Positions 27,618 to 39,462 of a DNA stretch of 42,130 bases are shown here, in pieces. The DNA is from a virus: positions 1 to 42,130 of IMG/VR virus record IMGVR_UViG_3300021425_000067; one strand, written 5' to 3'. Within the stretch, counting starts at the first letter, position 1. Each line of letters opens with the position of its first letter. Position numbers and translations under genes: made by a program. Below the pieces are notes generated by a model, which did not search any database, was not told where the DNA came from, and saw nothing but the letters and a program-made list of their open reading frames with translations.

Positions 27618-27797
27618 TTAGTTATAAAACCCCGTATCTTCACCATTGATTAGCGAAACATGATAGCCGCCCACGTTAGGCACAAAGATTCCAAATCCGT
27701 CGCTATCTGGTGCAATGCCATACGACCACTTGCCCAATAGGAACACGATTGCCAATAGTTGAATTTTAAGTGTTAGTTTTAAGATTAGGTTTCCCAT
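27618..27797 (-). CDS. 59-residue membrane or secreted protein
   Basis: Start at ATG 27797 overlaps the upstream stop as TAATG; a longer frame to 27884 lies wholly inside the upstream gene. The N-terminus (LILKLTLKIQLLAIVFLLGKW) is a membrane helix or signal; the remainder (SYGIAPDSDGFGIFVPNVGG and on) is polar and glycine-rich. No family is recognised. It could act in the host envelope early in infection. Confidence 0.65.
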   Translation of the reverse strand: MGNLILKLTLKIQLLAIVFLLGKWSYGIAPDSDGFGIFVPNVGGYHVSLINGEDTGFYN

Positions 27798-28486
27798 TAT
27801 ACTGACTCCAAATTTGTTGTTAGTCCGTCCACAACTTGAAAGCTGTATTTTCCATAAATTGCCCAAACGTGGCGTTTGATCCATGCATATTCTTTGGTTG
27901 ATCCGTCATAGATACCTAGTGCATTGGCAATGCTGTTTGCGCTATACCAATCGTTTCCTTCTTGCATGGCTAATTTTGCCATATATTCAGCGTCCATACG
28001 CAAAGATTCAAAACGCTCATTTTCCAATTCATCAACATAATGGTGCAATGCACGATATTCGATTGTTTCATTGCGGCAACACTTGCGAATATCTTTGGCG
28101 ATCAGAGCAAATAATTGGTCATGATCAACATCAGCATCCGCTCCAAAATATCCGCTATGCATAATCATTGAATAATCGTCCGTTAGTATCTCAAACCAAC
28201 GTGCAAAGCGTTCATCTTTGGTGTTCTCCCAAACTTGAGAAAAATCGTTGGTGTCGATTGCCTCCATCATTGATTGCGCCAATGCATAACAAAGACACGC
28301 TGCGAGAGGGTTTTCTTTAAATAGAGTCTTAAAGAACTGTTTCTTTTCAGCTTGCCAGATATCGTATTGCATTGTGCCAATTTCGATAAAGCTAGGAGTC
28401 TTTGCGAATTGCATAGCTTGCGCAACTGCGTCAAAGCCCGCTACTTCTTGAATTTTTGCGATTGTTTCTGCGAATTGGTTTGTCAT
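27797..28486 (-). CDS. 229-residue hypothetical protein heading the leftward cassette
   Basis: This acidic, helical protein (FAETIAKIQEVAGFDAVAQA at the start; WFEILTDDYSMIMHSGYFGA in the middle; NDWYSANSIANALGIYDGST near the end) has many Asp/Glu and aromatic residues. The C-terminal part NSIANALGI...STKEYAWIKRHVWAIYGKY reads like a winged or helix-turn-helix module, but I would not call it a DNA-binding protein without structure prediction. GAAGGG lies seven bases before ATG 28486. It is the first gene of the cassette and so may be expressed earliest. Confidence 0.75.
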   Translation of the reverse strand: MTNQFAETIAKIQEVAGFDAVAQAMQFAKTPSFIEIGTMQYDIWQAEKKQFFKTLFKENPLAACLCYALAQSMMEAIDTNDFSQVWENTKDERFARWFEILTDDYSMIMHSGYFGADADVDHDQLFALIAKDIRKCCRNETIEYRALHHYVDELENERFESLRMDAEYMAKLAMQEGNDWYSANSIANALGIYDGSTKEYAWIKRHVWAIYGKYSFQVVDGLTTNLESV

Positions 28487-28524
28487 GTCGTTTCCCTTCG
28501 GGGTTGGTTGTTGCCGTTGACGTA

Positions 28525-28554
28525 GCTAGGGCAGATTTTCGGACAGCTTGTCAA
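28525..28554 (-). promoter_or_regulatory. Weak promoter candidate for the leftward cassette
   Basis: TTGACA (minus strand, 28554-28549) lies about 62 bp before the first cassette gene. The sequence 17-18 bp downstream (CCTAGC) is only a poor -10. The TTGACAAGC string also occurs on the plus strand at 28763. Included because it is the only good -35 in the right place. Confidence 0.35.
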
Positions 28555-28603
28555 GAGTACAAAAGGAGAACATTGGGAAAAAACATTTTGTTACGTTACG
28601 TCA

Positions 28604-28652
28604 TTACAACCTATAGGTTAGCCAGGTTAGTTTATTTTACAACTTATAGGTT
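28604..28652. repeat. Direct repeat TTACAAC(C/T)TATAGGTT
   Basis: Copies at 28604-28619 and 28637-28652 start 33 bp apart, three helical turns, and each contains a TATAGG that could act as a -10. TGTTAC lies at 28589, and CTTATAGG in the second copy is also the downstream element of the promoter at 33112. They may be early promoters or binding sites of a regulator. Confidence 0.55.
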
Positions 28653-28656
28653 TAAT

Positions 28657-28673
28657 AGTTTAACGATTAAACT
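28657..28673. promoter_or_regulatory. Inverted repeat AGTTTAA-CGA-TTAAACT
   Basis: Perfect 7-bp arms with a 3-bp centre, lying 5 bp after the second TTACAACTTATAGGTT copy. Its size and symmetry fit an operator for a dimeric repressor controlling transcription that starts near 28650. Confidence 0.5.
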
Positions 28674-28802
28674 AGTTTTAAAATGCGGAACAGAGGGGGA
28701 ACGAATCGTGAATCAAACGTGAAGATTTAAAGCTATGCAAAAAATGCATGGCAGCTATGACTTGACAAGCACAGATTCTTGTGTGGCACGATTCGAATCA
28801 TG

Positions 28803-28882
28803 TTATGCGATTCTTACATATCAGACTTGCAAAAAATGCATACCTATAACCTATGCGATTCATGCATGGGTGCTATGCGATT
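28803..28882. repeat. TATGCGATT(C/T) repeat cluster
   Basis: TATGCGATTC at 28804-28813 and 28852-28861 and TATGCGATTT at 28874-28883, the last two followed by ATGCAT. Two TGCAAAAAATGCAT boxes (28737, 28828) lie among them. Most copies include a GANTC site. Probably part of the origin or early operators. Confidence 0.55.
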
Positions 28883-29098
28883 TATGCATAACCGACTCTT
28901 TTTGTCGGGAATGACTGATTCGGTCATGCGGTTACCTGATTCGCTGTCGTTTGTCAATCGGATTCACGAGTCAAGCAAAAAATACTTGCGAATCGTAGTA
29001 AATTTACCACACTATCCGAAATATCCTGTCAATTATCCTTTTGTGCCATTGACAGCAAATTTGGATATGCGAATCACTACCCGAATCGGTAGTTTGGA

Positions 29099-29198
29099 AC
29101 GAATCAAGAACGAATCACGAAAATCAAACGAATCGGGAACGAATCGTGAAATGAGAACGAATCAGGAACGAATCAGGAAAACGGAACGAATCATGAAC
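29099..29198. repeat. 29-bp tandem repeat (iteron array), 3.4 copies
   Basis: Units begin at 29099, 29128, 29157 and 29186 (partial). Each full unit holds ACGAATC twice, 11 bp apart, then an A-rich 18-bp step to the next unit. The seven ACGAATC starts thus alternate 11, 18, 11, 18, 11, 18 bp. All contain GAATC. The array resembles iterons bound by a replication initiator or a cooperative regulator. Confidence 0.85.
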
Positions 29199-29220
29199 TG
29201 TGATATTTTTGCCACAGACC

Positions 29221-29327
29221 CCCCACAGTGGAAATTAAGGGTCTACCCCCTCCAGTGGAAATTAAGAGTTGACCCCCACAGTGGAAATTAGTAATCTACT
29301 TACGAATCACCCCCACAGTGGAAATAT
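29221..29327 (+). promoter_or_regulatory. Four CCCC-x-CAGTGGAAAT repeats before the early array
   Basis: CAGTGGAAAT starts at 29226, 29253, 29279 and 29316. Three copies have CCCCACAGTGG, whose core CCAC-A-GTGG is a perfect odd palindrome, followed by AAATTA in three of the four. The last copy ends 16 bp before the first early ATG, so a protein bound there would control that gene. Spacing is 27, 26 and 37 bp. Confidence 0.75.
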
Positions 29328-29342
29328 AGAAAGGAAAATAAA

Positions 29343-29522
29343 ATGGCAGAGATTGGCAAAAGAATTACCTACAAAGGTCACTCAATTATTCCAGTATACT
29401 TTGCAGAAAGTAAGAAAACAGTGTTTGACTTGTACATGGGAATCACGTATACACGTTTTATAGACACTTGGAACAGCGTAGAAGAGTGTAAAGAATATGT
29501 CGATAGACCTACAAAGATATAA
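29343..29522 (+). CDS. 59-residue early protein
   Basis: This is the first gene of the rightward array; ATG 29343 has GAAAGGA upstream. The product starts MAEIGKRITYKGHSIIPVYF and has a strand-rich N-terminal half and an acidic-aromatic C-terminal half (NSVEECKEYVDRPTKI). No family is recognised. As the first early gene it is a candidate host-takeover protein. Confidence 0.68.
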   Translation: MAEIGKRITYKGHSIIPVYFAESKKTVFDLYMGITYTRFIDTWNSVEECKEYVDRPTKI

Positions 29523-29535
29523 GGAGACCCCTACG

Positions 29536-29736
29536 ATGGAAAAAGAAGTAGAAGTACTAAGCATCATAGCAAAGATACTGAAGGATGCAGATAAAGAGAT
29601 CGTCGCAGTGTTCAAGAACAATTTCACTGAGGATGAACTGGATAACAGTGCATGGGCTATATCTGCTTACAGTCTAGCGTGGGATGCTATGCGTGAAGCA
29701 GAAGAGTTAAAAGCTAAAGCAGAATTGGAGTCGTAA
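29536..29736 (+). CDS. 66-residue acidic helical early protein
   Basis: I start at ATG 29536, nine bases after AAGGAG; the frame is open back to 29497. The product is almost all helix, with many Glu, Lys and Ala, and holds NFTEDELDNSAWAISAYSLA. No family is recognised. It follows the first early gene by 13 bp and precedes the next by 1 bp. Confidence 0.68.
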   Translation: MEKEVEVLSIIAKILKDADKEIVAVFKNNFTEDELDNSAWAISAYSLAWDAMREAEELKAKAELES

Positions 29737-31883: not shown

Positions 31884-32550
31884 AATCAACGTAGACCTGA
31901 TTGAGCATATGGGTGATGACCTTACGGTTGTACGTGCTGCACGAGTGTCCTACGCTAACACTTCTGACTGGCGTGGTCAGATACATTCAGGGGAATTTCG
32001 TGTCCTCAGTGACAAGGACATACGCTTAATCAGTTTTTTAGCAAAGCATAAGCATACATCACCATTCGGACATGGGTTTGCTACCTTCCGTGTGGATGCA
32101 CCAATCTTTGTTGCCCGACAGTTGGTTAAGCATAAGTTCCTACGGTGGAATGAGATTAGTCGTCGTTACGTGAAGTATGAACCAGAGTTCTATGAACCAT
32201 ACTGGCGTGAGAAACCTGAGAACTCTAAGCAGGGTTCAGGGGGGCCGATGGAAATTAGTCAAGAAGCTGAAATGATGTTTCATGCTACCTTACGTAATGC
32301 ACTTACGACATATGACATGATGATCAAAGAGGGTGTTTCACCTGAACAGGCACGATCCATATTACCCCAGAATATGATGACATCATGGTATTGGTCTGGC
32401 AGTCTGGATGCATGGGCTGACATGTGTAAGCTACGTTGTGCCAAGGATACACAAGCAGAAACACGCATCGTAGCCTCTGTGATTTATGGGGAAATGCTGA
32501 AGCTATACCCTGTCTCTTGGGCTGCATTAATGGAGAGTGATGATGGATAA
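31870..32550 (+). CDS. thyX: Flavin-dependent thymidylate synthase
   Basis: I chose ATG 31870 with AAGGAG ten bases upstream; a longer frame to 31768 has no support. The 226-residue protein has the ThyX core: SPFGHGFATFRVDAPIFVAR, the signature region QLVKHKFLRWNEISRRY at residues 84-100, and ARSILPQNMMTSWYWSGSLD. It methylates dUMP using folate and FAD. The signature RHR-x7-S reads KHK-x7-S here (Lys87-His88-Lys89, Ser97). It leads the nucleotide and replication part of the array and overlaps the sigma factor start. Confidence 0.93.
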   Translation: MKKGEINVDLIEHMGDDLTVVRAARVSYANTSDWRGQIHSGEFRVLSDKDIRLISFLAKHKHTSPFGHGFATFRVDAPIFVARQLVKHKFLRWNEISRRYVKYEPEFYEPYWREKPENSKQGSGGPMEISQEAEMMFHATLRNALTTYDMMIKEGVSPEQARSILPQNMMTSWYWSGSLDAWADMCKLRCAKDTQAETRIVASVIYGEMLKLYPVSWAALMESDDG

Positions 32551-33088
32551 CGATGATATTATGAAAATATGTCGATCCCTAGCGAGGAAATATAACGATC
32601 CACAAGAGTATGACGACCTAGTGTCTGAAGGTGTCGTAAAAGTGCTAGAAATGGTCGCTGAAGGTAAAACCGACAAGAACCTACTGTATTCTCATGCGCA
32701 AGCAGTGATGAATGAGTATTACAATCTGTCTAGATCACCTGTTAAAGTGCCTAAGTCGCATCAAGCAAAGGCAATGAGTGCTGATGATGATGTTGATGGT
32801 TGGACTGCTACTGCCTTACATCAGGCATTGTATGCTGATTCTGTTGAGTATGAAGAGTATATGTCGCAAGCACCATCGACAGAAGACCTGTACGAACAGA
32901 AAGAATGGTTTGCTAGGGTTCAAACTGTGGCTGTCAGTCACCTAACACAAGAAGAGTGGGCAATCATTCGCATGAGATATTGGGATGACCTTACACAAGA
33001 TGATGTAGGTATTCATATGGGTCGTAACAAAATGTGGGTATCACGACACGAAAAAGCAGCACTAGAAAAAATCCGTAACAATTTGTGA
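32543..33088 (+). CDS. RNA polymerase sigma-70 family factor
   Basis: This 181-residue protein starts at ATG 32543, seven bases after GGAG (GTG 32537 and ATG 32540 are alternatives). Residues about 18-60 match sigma region 2: YDDLVSEGVVKVLEMVAEGK, then a helix and LSRSPVKVPKSHQAK, like the region 2.4/3.0 junction. Residues about 130-178 match region 4: LTQEEWAIIRMRYWDDLTQD, DVGIHMGRNKMWVSRHEKAA, with the helix-turn-helix at the end. A promoter motif shared by three operons begins at the base after its stop codon. It probably redirects host RNA polymerase to phage genes. It is not an ECF type in strict length; T4 gp55-like factors are an alternative relative. Confidence 0.8.
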   Translation: MDNDDIMKICRSLARKYNDPQEYDDLVSEGVVKVLEMVAEGKTDKNLLYSHAQAVMNEYYNLSRSPVKVPKSHQAKAMSADDDVDGWTATALHQALYADSVEYEEYMSQAPSTEDLYEQKEWFARVQTVAVSHLTQEEWAIIRMRYWDDLTQDDVGIHMGRNKMWVSRHEKAALEKIRNNL

Positions 33089-35219: not shown

Positions 35220-37061
35220 ATGCCAGTATTCGATATTGAAACAGACGGTCTACTAGACGAACTAACAAAGATTCATGTGTTATCTTGGATGGGGGACGAT
35301 GGAAATGTGCATTATACACATGACTATGATGCTATGCGTATATTTTTTACAGAAGCACCTACACTGATTGGTCACAACATCATTCGCTTTGACATCCCTG
35401 CAGTGGAAAAAGTGTTAGGCATTGAAGTAAAGTCTCGTCTGATCGACACTCTACCTTTGTCGTGGTATCTAAACCATGATCGTATGAGACATGGGCTTGA
35501 GGGCTACGGAGAGGACTATGGTGTACCTAAACCAGTGATCAAGGACTGGAACACGCTAACACCAGAGGAATATGCTCACCGCTGTAATGAGGATGTTAAG
35601 ATCAACACAAGGTTACACCGTGACTTGGACTTGAAGCTGAACAAACTGTATCAGGACAGTGGAGAGAAAGATCGCTTTATTGACTATCTCATGTTCAAGA
35701 TGGACTGTGCAAGAGAGCAGGAGACCCTACGATGGAAATTAGATGTGGAGAAAGCAAAAGCCCATCTACAGGAATGGGAAGACCTAAAGCATGAAAAGAC
35801 AGAAGCCTTGGCTGATGCTATGCCAAAACGTAATCTATTTACTACCAAGACAAAACCGAAAGTCATGTACAAAAAAGACGGTACACTTTCTAGTCACGGC
35901 GAAAAATGGGTTCAGTTATGTAAGCAAGAACACCAACCGATTTCTACACTGTCTATGGTGGTCAAAACAGGAGAAGAACGAGCAAATCCTAATAGTGTGG
36001 AGCAGGTCAAAGATTGGCTTTTCTCTTTGGGGTGGAAACCTCGTACCTTCAAATACCTAAAGGATAAGGTAACTGGTGATGAACGGAAATTGGAACAAGT
36101 ACGGAAAGACGGAGAACTCTGTCCCTCAGTACGTGAACTGGTTGAACAGGAACCTGCTATTAGTTTGCTTGATGGCTTGTCTGTTCTTTCACATCGTATT
36201 GGTGTCCTTAGATCAATGGTTGAAACAGAGAACGATGGATACGTGCAAGCAACTGTTGCAGGGTTCACTAACACCCTACGCTTTCGTCATGCCCGACCAC
36301 TGGTCAACTTGCCATCGGTTGATAAACCCTACGGAAAAGAAATCAGAGGGTGTCTAACTGCACCTGAAGGTTACACTTTGTGTGGTGCTGATATGACATC
36401 GTTAGAGGATACGACAAAGAGACACTACATGAAACCACTTGATCCTGATTATGTCGCTGAAATGTCTAAGGATGGGTTTGACCCGCACCTTGACCTTGCT
36501 AAACACGCAGGTGTCGTCACACAAGATGACATCGACAAGCATAATTCAGGGGAACGTAGCCTTAAGGCACTACGTAAGAACTACAAGGTGGTGAACTACA
36601 GTGCTACGTATGGTGTAGGAGCCGCTAAACTGGCTCGTGAGACAGGTATGAGTAAGTCTGAGGCACAGACACTGCTAGATGCTTTTTGGTCACGTAACTG
36701 GTCAGTACAGAAGGTGGCAGAAGGTCTACGTGTTCGTGAACTCTTTGGCTCCGCTTGGGTACAGAACCCTGTATCTAAATTCTGGTATAGTCTGCGGTCT
36801 GACAAGGATCGTTTCAGTACACTAAATCAGGGTACAGGTGTATTCTGTTTCGACAGTTGGGTTAAGGGGTGTCGTGGTATGGGACTAAAGACTATCGGTC
36901 AGTTCCACGACGAAATTATAACTTTAGTGGAAGAGGGGGATGAGGACAAAGAAGAAAATATTATGACTATGGCAATCGACCAAGTAAACCAAGAAATTCA
37001 ACTAAATGTACCACTTGGGATAGATGCACAGTTCGGACGGACATATGCAGACATCCATTAG
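35220..37061 (+). CDS. polA: Family A DNA polymerase (T7-like)
   Basis: I chose ATG 35220, with AGGAG upstream; a frame to 35205 exists. The 613-residue protein has a 3'-5' exonuclease domain (FDIETDGL; IGHNIIRFDIPAVEK; CNEDV) and polymerase motifs A (CGADMTSLEDTTKRH), B (RKNYKVVNYSATYG) and C (GQFHDEIITL). The residue matching E. coli Phe762 is Tyr, a state reported for many virulent phages. Residues about 195-300 are a T7-like insertion region, diverged. It would work with the helicase upstream and SSB downstream; no obvious dedicated thioredoxin partner is seen apart from host thioredoxin. Confidence 0.95.
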   Translation: MPVFDIETDGLLDELTKIHVLSWMGDDGNVHYTHDYDAMRIFFTEAPTLIGHNIIRFDIPAVEKVLGIEVKSRLIDTLPLSWYLNHDRMRHGLEGYGEDYGVPKPVIKDWNTLTPEEYAHRCNEDVKINTRLHRDLDLKLNKLYQDSGEKDRFIDYLMFKMDCAREQETLRWKLDVEKAKAHLQEWEDLKHEKTEALADAMPKRNLFTTKTKPKVMYKKDGTLSSHGEKWVQLCKQEHQPISTLSMVVKTGEERANPNSVEQVKDWLFSLGWKPRTFKYLKDKVTGDERKLEQVRKDGELCPSVRELVEQEPAISLLDGLSVLSHRIGVLRSMVETENDGYVQATVAGFTNTLRFRHARPLVNLPSVDKPYGKEIRGCLTAPEGYTLCGADMTSLEDTTKRHYMKPLDPDYVAEMSKDGFDPHLDLAKHAGVVTQDDIDKHNSGERSLKALRKNYKVVNYSATYGVGAAKLARETGMSKSEAQTLLDAFWSRNWSVQKVAEGLRVRELFGSAWVQNPVSKFWYSLRSDKDRFSTLNQGTGVFCFDSWVKGCRGMGLKTIGQFHDEIITLVEEGDEDKEENIMTMAIDQVNQEIQLNVPLGIDAQFGRTYADIH

Positions 37062-38612: not shown

Positions 38613-38920
38613 GACAACAAGAGATCAGGGATACTATCCTTAAGACGTTCCCTGAACTTGAACCTGACGATGTTCGTTCTACTGCTATGGGCCAGTCAGG
38701 GGAAGATATACAACTGTCTCCAAAGGCACGAGACATTCTTCCCCTGTCTATAGAAGTAAAGCGACGAAAGAGCCTAGCAACCGTATACGACTGGATTGAA
38801 CAAGCAAAGCAAGACGGTCAATATGAACCTGTTGTTTTCTTCCGTGGGGATAGAAAAGATTGGGTTGTTATGGTTGGTCTGGAACACTATATGGAACTTG
38901 TAAGTAAGTGGAGAAAGTAA
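38573..38920 (+). CDS. PD-(D/E)XK-type nuclease, resolvase-like
   Basis: This 115-residue protein has a basic start (TARSSKAKGRLGQQEIRDTI), GQSGEDIQLSP with Asp45, and SIEVKRRKS with Glu61-Val62-Lys63. This is the D...ExK pattern of small Holliday junction resolvases and related endonucleases. It follows the exonuclease gene (40 bp overlap), where T7-like modules often carry a junction-cutting enzyme. I prefer that role, but repair nuclease is possible. Confidence 0.78.
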   Translation: MATARSSKAKGRLGQQEIRDTILKTFPELEPDDVRSTAMGQSGEDIQLSPKARDILPLSIEVKRRKSLATVYDWIEQAKQDGQYEPVVFFRGDRKDWVVMVGLEHYMELVSKWRK

Positions 38921-39462
38921 TGGGCAAACGGTCTAACTTTGAACGTGTTGAAAGAGATTATTACCCGACACCAATAGAGGCCGTTGCACCTTTGATCGAC
39001 CATCTTCCGCAGGAGACTTTTGACTTTGTTGAACCTTGTGCAGGAGATGGTCGGTTAATCCAACATATACACGATCTTACAGATGGACATGGGACTTGTA
39101 TATATGCTTGCGACATTGAACCTAGACATCCCGACATTGTTCAGCATGATGCTCTTGATATTGACTTTGGTGGCTATGAGGTAATGGACTTCTGTATTAC
39201 TAACCCACCGTGGGAACGTAACTTCTTACATCAGTTTATAGAACACTGGATAGACATTTGTCCTACTTGGTTGTTGTTTGATGCAGACTGGATGCATACT
39301 AAACAGTCAGCTAAACTTATGACATACTGTTCTAGAGTTGTCAGTGTTGGCAGAGTTAAGTGGATAGAAGGTTCAAAGCATACAGGTAAGGACAACTGTT
39401 GTTGGTATCTATTCGATCAGAACGATAAAGGCCCGACTGAATTTTACGGAAGGCTAATGTGA
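38920..39462 (+). CDS. Adenine-type SAM-dependent DNA methyltransferase-like protein
   Basis: I start at ATG 38920 (GGAGAAAG upstream, overlap with the previous stop). This 180-residue protein has DYYPTPIEAV, the SAM-binding VEPCAGDGRL (motif I), DIEPRHPDIVQHDALDID and the catalytic motif NPPW (residues about 99-102), as in N6-adenine methyltransferases. No target-recognition domain is visible, so specificity cannot be read. It may shield phage DNA from host restriction, or modify the GANTC-rich control region. Confidence 0.82.
   Translation: MGKRSNFERVERDYYPTPIEAVAPLIDHLPQETFDFVEPCAGDGRLIQHIHDLTDGHGTCIYACDIEPRHPDIVQHDALDIDFGGYEVMDFCITNPPWERNFLHQFIEHWIDICPTWLLFDADWMHTKQSAKLMTYCSRVVSVGRVKWIEGSKHTGKDNCCWYLFDQNDKGPTEFYGRLM

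Follow-up and report, generated by a model that had tools for sequence, protein, structure and literature searches.

A GANTC-rich early control region with an exchangeable repeat array in a roseophage-like virus: possible sensing of host CcrM methylation

What reads a tandem array of short, regularly spaced boxes lying where the two gene blocks of a phage genome diverge? This question is raised by the window analysed here, that is, by the whole stretch of DNA under study, which is an entire virus record of 42,130 bases. Its main genes to the left of position 28486 point leftwards and those to the right of 29343 point rightwards; the leftward block contains the terminase and structural genes, and the rightward block the replication genes. 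The boxes lie within the gap between them, the main features of which are as follows.

28487..29342, no strand: the gap between the divergent gene blocks (856 bp).
27797..28486, minus strand: first leftward ORF (229 aa), without a family match.
29343..29522, plus strand: first rightward ORF past the control region, without a family match.
About 28733-28890: ATGC...GCAT palindromes, a third repeat family (e.g., ATGCAAAAAATGCAT and ATGCGATTCATGCAT).
28967..29091, plus strand: block common to loci L006, L011, L037 and L040 (82-87% identity), forming the left border of the exchanged array segment.
29097..29198, plus strand: array 1 (type I), a 29-bp unit in which (G/A)AACGAATC boxes, seven in all, are paired at a spacing of 11 bp.
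29220..29336, plus strand: array 2, four repeats of about 27 bp of the CCCCCACAGTGGAAATTA type, adjoining array 1 or, in relatives, its substitutes.

An Rfam scan returned nothing at gathering thresholds, and comparison of the gap with named phages found no DNA similarity. The ORFs scanned with Pfam, PHROGs and NCBIfam, which are a subset of those in the window, include a sigma70-like protein, a primase-helicase and a PolA polymerase, among others; the sigma70-like protein (32537-33088; Pfam Sigma70_r4, E 6.4e-13) is a candidate reader of phage promoters.

The first-pass annotation located ACGAATC at 29099, 29110, 29128, 29139, 29157, 29168 and 29186, and all seven positions are reproduced as exact matches. 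The steps between them (11, 18, 11, 18, 11 and 18) make up the 29-bp unit that it had described, in agreement with TRF (tandem array at 29098-29198, period 29, score 123), and, as it had also claimed, the boxes are constant from unit to unit while the linkers vary. After the last box there is a GAAC at +11, and a second GAATC is absent there (29184-29198). More than one ACGAATC per 100 bp on the given strand was seen in none of 200 dinucleotide shuffles; the whole window, with both strands counted, contains 17 ACGAATC versus 3.1 expected, a number that none of 100 shuffles reached. A coding interpretation was considered and rejected: an ORF of 170 aa (28779-29291) spans the array and is matched in 39 loci, with 46 covering that stretch, but these matches are taken to reflect conservation of the DNA, since a unit of 29 bp is not divisible by three and both step and copy number vary.

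The closest named relative of the virus is Roseobacter phage CRP-6, to which a 3-kb terminase/portal stretch is 73% identical at the DNA level and to whose primase the window's primase is 76% identical in protein sequence; a ribonucleotide-reductase stretch shows 74% DNA identity to CRP-4. We infer that the window belongs to the CRP-6 group, which is reported to be ubiquitous in the ocean (PMC6918029; the papers cited here by PMC number are drawn on in excerpt). The comparison with relatives that had been proposed earlier finds the spacing of array 1 in dozens of IMG/VR contigs: the pattern ACGAATC-N4-ACGAATC-N11-ACGAATC occurs in 54 IMG/VR stretches, and among the loci collected there are 51 clusters of at least four boxes (including the window and two repeated contigs, L121 of L007 and L091 of L054), in which the steps are 11 (110 times), 18 (104), 19 (36) and others (8), one 11 and one 18 step being fixed by the fetch pattern itself. 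A search with array 2 alone yielded at least 119 stretches; by the criteria applied, array 2 is present in 164 of the collected loci, or 131 without duplicates. For all locus sets, near-duplicates were dropped on the basis of the sequence just upstream of array 2, as were loci that were short on either side.

Array 1 nevertheless occupies a slot whose contents are exchanged between close relatives. L011 (97%), L037 (94%, partial) and L040 (93%) are close to the window in primase identity, yet these loci carry an unrelated repeat in place of array 1; they align with the window up to the array (28967-29091) and beyond it (about 29217 to 29346), while the array itself is unmatched. By eye, the substitutes include CTATCCTTTYGTA at 21-bp steps, CATCGCATACC at 10-bp steps and GTTGCAARAATGTCAC, and further ACTATCGTTAGTATAGGT, ATCGAAAGATAC, TAACCTTTCGCATATGG, TATAGTCGAGTCTTTTAGTA, GGCTCAGGCTTT and more; upstream of array 2, some of them have 10- or 21-bp steps and some contain GANTC. 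(Unrelated slot repeats were seen in L011, L037, L040, L077, L081, L085, L152, L157, L176, L177, L189, L192, L234 and others.) CRP-6 itself has array 2, with the other repeat GTTGCAARAATGTCAC standing for array 1, while in ICBM2, CRP-4 and CRP-5 neither array motif is clustered. Among loci fetched by their primase and having at least 3 kb upstream, 4 of 31 have a group of at least four boxes inside 150 bp; some other contigs end before or inside the slot. As regards array 2, its units in CRP-6 and others read CCGATGGAAAATG, and those of the window (29220-29336) look like the sequence around the start of a neighbouring gene, which reads CCCCTACGATGGAAA (29528-29542).

Does any gene change together with the contents of the slot? 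Across 120 distinct loci (43 of type I and 77 others), the array types are not told apart by any protein family encoded within about 6 kb to the left or right. Two families without a member in the window are tilted by array type (15/38 versus 2/65 and 10/30 versus 0/52), as is one with a member in the window (31/32 versus 38/57); and in L006 the left 229-aa gene is kept (74%) beside a type II array. The array might alternatively be a packaging (pac/cos) recognition site: Veravirus ICBM2 has its terminal repeats in the corresponding gap, and the pac site of phage P1, with its Dam sites, offers a parallel. Against this, the window's terminase is flanked by a 152-aa ORF to which both L007, which is type I, and L011, which is type II, have a counterpart of 99% identity (140 of 152 residues aligned), so that a packaging site would have to change without that protein changing; its role as a small terminase is a positional assignment, as it has no family match. 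A packaging function is thus considered highly improbable.

More can be learned from the boxes themselves. In 42 type I loci there are 220 exact copies of GAACGAATC, and the base that follows is always A (166) or G (54). The 53 boxes in these loci having a single mismatch deviate at position 1 (48), 2 (1), 3 (3) or 9 (1), so that no variant occurs at positions 4-8 (CGAAT). All seven boxes of array 1 read CGAATC[AG], i.e., YGATTCG on the minus strand. The protein GcrA binds both sigma70 and methylated GANTC, and in Caulobacter the extended motif YGAKTCK/YGAKTCG marks the promoters that it activates, although that motif was not recovered in a Brevundimonas study (PMC7987155). Judged by its letters, then, the part of the box that never varies has the form of a CcrM-type site in a GcrA-type context. 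Within the 42 type I loci, however, the base at the N of GANTC is always A and the AAC preceding the site is also kept; hence, box conservation exceeds what a CcrM or GcrA motif needs.

The outer letters of the box allow another interpretation, namely that the repeats are tandem operators (GAAC-N7-GAAC) of the host SOS repressor LexA, by which the early promoter is held off. Such repeats occur at 28688, 29097, 29155 and 29184 in the window's control region; there are 151 of them on the plus strand of 117 control regions, seven being the commonest spacing (the next, 14, has 91); and, of 17 parsed alphaproteobacterial ORFs that were assigned to lexA, 14 have GAAC-N7-GAAC or its complement in their upstream sequence. 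Use of LexA by phages is, furthermore, known (PMC9437464). Against this, GAATC lies inside the N7 of 139 of the 151 control-region repeats, whereas at lexA the N7 ends in TA in 12 of 15 cases; the box varies most at the G of GAAC (48 of 53 one-mismatch boxes); and GAACGAATCNNGAAC shows no enrichment across 248 host-like genomes (4 places versus 4 for the reversed control). Control by LexA is therefore regarded as improbable.

If a GANTC site is the core of the box, are such sites also concentrated outside of array 1? The pertinent feature is:

28703..29308, no strand: 23 GANTC (CcrM-type) sites, 17 of them in YGAKTCK, including the seven array boxes.

These 23 sites compare with a mean of 3.2 and a maximum of 8 over 500 shuffles of positions 28691-29320. 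The enrichment extends to relatives: 77 distinct control regions contain 978 GANTC sites (16.9 per kb), an observed/expected ratio of 4.60, which ranks first among the 16 patterns of the form XYNY'X' (the next reaching 2.14), while outside of the control regions of the same loci GANTC is under-represented (0.62). Among the 49 loci that contain at most two GAACGAATC, GANTC still ranks first, with a ratio of 2.96. The extended context is likewise enriched: YGAKTCK accounts for 383 of 578 GANTC sites in type I control regions and for 233 of 400 in the others, versus 201 of 717 and 257 of 915 in the rest of these loci, that is, for a fraction of 0.58-0.66 versus 0.28. To allow for kinship, the 142 loci were grouped at 80% identity over 250 bases into 35 clusters (replacing a looser version with 9 clusters); with one representative per cluster, YGAKTCK makes up 187 of 323 sites, and, in clusters without type I, 104 of 192. 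By cluster median, 22 of the 35 are GANTC-rich (more than 6 per kb) and 13 are poor, having few or no sites, a split that possibly reflects a difference in hosts. Of the named phages, CRP-6 has 16.8 GANTC per kb in the gap stretch taken and the outgroup records ICBM2, CRP-4, CRP-5 and T5S1 have 1.2-1.7.

In the window outside of its control region the degree of GANTC depletion depends upon the model (a ratio of 0.68 under a Markov model; 67 versus 154.5 expected from base composition). Other words are also scarce: outside of 28691-29320, GGACC/GGTCC occurs 0 times against a Markov expectation of 31.9 and CCAGG/CCTGG twice against 44.3, which suggests avoidance of GGWCC- and CCWGG-type restriction. 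The window encodes, in addition, a methyltransferase-like ORF (38908-39462) with an NPPW motif and a match to the DNA methyltransferase family phrog_799 (E 5.8e-36), without a match in Pfam; GANTC may conceivably be its target.

The first-pass annotation had likened the boxes to initiator or repressor iterons. That they form a conserved array within a control region, which is probably recognised by a protein, stands; the initiator role finds no support among the ORFs scanned. An origin of replication, at which a phage or host initiator would bind the boxes, helped by array 2 or by the AT-rich left part, nevertheless has points in its favour: the gap lies at the switch in gene orientation and near the minimum of cumulative GC skew (the 27-28 kb bin), although GC skew is confounded with gene orientation; the direct repeats are helically spaced; the stretch at 28600-28659 is 70% AT; and the rightward genes include a primase-helicase and a DNA polymerase. 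The ori and ter regions of D. shibae, like its conjugative plasmids, are enriched in GANTC (PMC6473078), so that such an origin might also be methylation-sensitive. Set against these points, the scan, which took in part of the window's ORFs, turned up no initiator family (in accord with the earlier remark that no known phage initiator gene is evident); the type of array changes without a co-varying gene within about 6 kb; and the exact DnaA-box consensus occurs once in the whole window, at 35312. On balance an origin is doubtful, though it retains a real share of the probability.

If the sites are regulatory, then their position relative to a promoter matters. The features concerned are:

29269..29297, plus strand: early promoter of the sigma70 type, TTGACC-N17-TAATCT, as predicted from sequence.
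29304..29308, no strand: GAATC six bases past the -10 hexamer TAATCT, reading TGATTCG on the minus strand.

Most of the spacer of this putative promoter is formed by the third unit of array 2. Among 118 loci, a TTGAC stands in promoter phase to 89 TGGAAW/GGGAAW words, spread over 83 loci; GANTC occurs at positions 9-12 or 16 after 66 of these 89 promoter-type units and is missing after the other 23, whereas it follows 23 of the 464 remaining TGGAAW/GGGAAW words of these stretches. A stricter search found a promoter in 45 of the 118 loci, with GANTC in 45 of 45, either 0 bases (37 loci) or 6 bases (8 loci, including the window) after the -10. These locus counts are inflated by relatedness: 66 promoter-bearing loci, all with GANTC, fall into a single cluster. 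Counted by cluster, 12 of the 35 have the promoter GANTC, 10 do not and 13 lack a promoter call; all 12 of the former are GANTC-rich, as are four of the 10 without it (L187, L102, L138 and L207), the other six being poor. Against use of this promoter layout by the host, TTGAC-N18/19-TANNNTGANTC shows no enrichment in 120 host-like genomes, with 9 places versus 13 for the reversed control, a count that covers GANTC after the -10 rather than between the -10 and -35.

One could still suppose that array 1 is an operator array of some other phage or host repressor or activator, that it contains GAATC by chance, and that the GANTC signal elsewhere has a separate cause. This would account for the fixed base at N and the kept AAC within the box, and is in keeping both with array 2, which suggests further operators here, and with the many unrelated repeat types that fill the slot in relatives. 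It leaves unexplained, however, the GANTC enrichment and YGAKTCK context in loci without array 1, as well as the GANTC at the promoter, and is judged unlikely.

The crowding of GANTC sites beside a predicted early promoter suggests instead that the first genes of the phage may be under the influence of the host's methylation state. Specifically, we propose, at roughly even confidence, that the gap is a methylation-sensing early control region that uses the host's CcrM and GcrA. The host CcrM would set the methylation both at the GANTC sites of the array and at the one just past the -10 of the early promoter; GcrA bound to sigma70 RNA polymerase would read that methylation; and the upstream array would add further methylation-dependent binding sites. 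Early transcription would then vary with the methylation state of the phage DNA (full, half or none) and, through this dependence, would be tied to the cell cycle of the previous host and to fresh copying of the DNA. In Caulobacter CcrM acts late in the cell cycle (PMC3667746); phage DNA that has just been copied would therefore no longer be fully methylated, a change that could act as a switch or a timer for early transcription.

Several published findings are pertinent to this proposal. GcrA covers -35 to +7 of the fully methylated ctrA P1 promoter, GcrA binding depends on GANTC, and changes to GANTC cut the activity of several promoters by 60-80%, though not of all those tested (PMC3667746). 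Caulobacter promoters having GANTC outside of the -35/-10 region peak at other times than those having it inside (PMC4287350), so that the proposed effect might have either sign. Access of CcrM to GANTC can, in addition, be blocked by MucR and other DNA-binding proteins (PMC5172544), so that the reader of the sites may not be GcrA.

Is the required machinery present in a plausible host? In the family of genome G254, which is taken as host-like, 41 of 41 genomes have GcrA and 38 of 41 have the RAMA domain of the CcrM type (a match to PF07750 also occurs in one archaeal control genome). The LexA of this family is 68.6% identical to one encoded on a plasmid of Cereibacter azotoformans, from which we infer that it belongs to the Rhodobacteraceae. 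Relatives of the terminase in bacterial genomes (17 loci) are at most 49% identical; thus, a close prophage was not found with those search patterns. Nor did 14 phage records, several of which are fragments, yield a match to the GcrA or N6_N4_Mtase families.

How does this compare with known systems? Most similar are the LPEG phages with CtrA sites, such as Brevundimonas phage Delta, whose hosts are alphaproteobacterial, as that of the window probably is, and in which sites for a host cell-cycle regulator crowd the divergent gap or the terminal repeats, for which a coupling of phage development to the host has been proposed; their motif is TTAA-N7-TTAA, whereas that of the window is GANTC in a YGAKTCK context (PMC9437464). 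A CtrA-type TTAA-N7-TTAA occurs once in the whole window, at 28667-28681, which is inside the gap but is not a concentration. GcrA motifs were scanned in that study as well and, in the excerpted text, showed no asymmetric distribution for any phage subset (PMC9437464). The GcrA/CcrM promoters of Caulobacter (ctrA P1, mipZ, podJ and ftsN; PMC3667746, PMC3885167) resemble the window in being of the sigma70 type with GANTC; the window differs in that the promoter is a predicted phage promoter, in that GANTC lies past the -10, and in having an upstream array of seven sites. Phages controlled by LexA (GIL01, the CTX prophage and others; PMC9437464) likewise place host operators within the phage control region, with a similar GAAC-N7-GAAC geometry, but in the control regions compared here the inner GAATC is nearly invariant and the G of GAAC variable, without enrichment in host-like genomes. 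CRP-6 (MK613348) is like the window in having array 2 and the promoter followed by GATTC. The literature searched, which was largely open-access and included PMC12570018 in excerpt, yielded no description of GANTC arrays in the early control region of a phage. The system is placed with phage use of a host cell-cycle regulator, as a possible rather than a proven member of the GcrA regulon.

Extended to the group, the proposal describes roseophage-like viruses in which GANTC is scarce over the genome, concentrated in the early control region and present at a fixed place by the early promoter; in which CcrM methylation, read by GcrA-sigma70, gates early transcription; and in which the array slot is a hypervariable cassette refilled with unrelated repeats, several containing GANTC. 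This broader formulation is offered tentatively, at somewhat less than even confidence. If true, it would mean that the early programme of these phages is tied to the cell-cycle DNA methylation of the host despite there being no GcrA- or CcrM-type match in the phage records searched, and that they are the GcrA/CcrM counterpart of the CtrA-site phages. The methylation history of a virion's DNA should then alter early expression, and the exchangeable slot would provide a natural series of control regions within otherwise similar phages.
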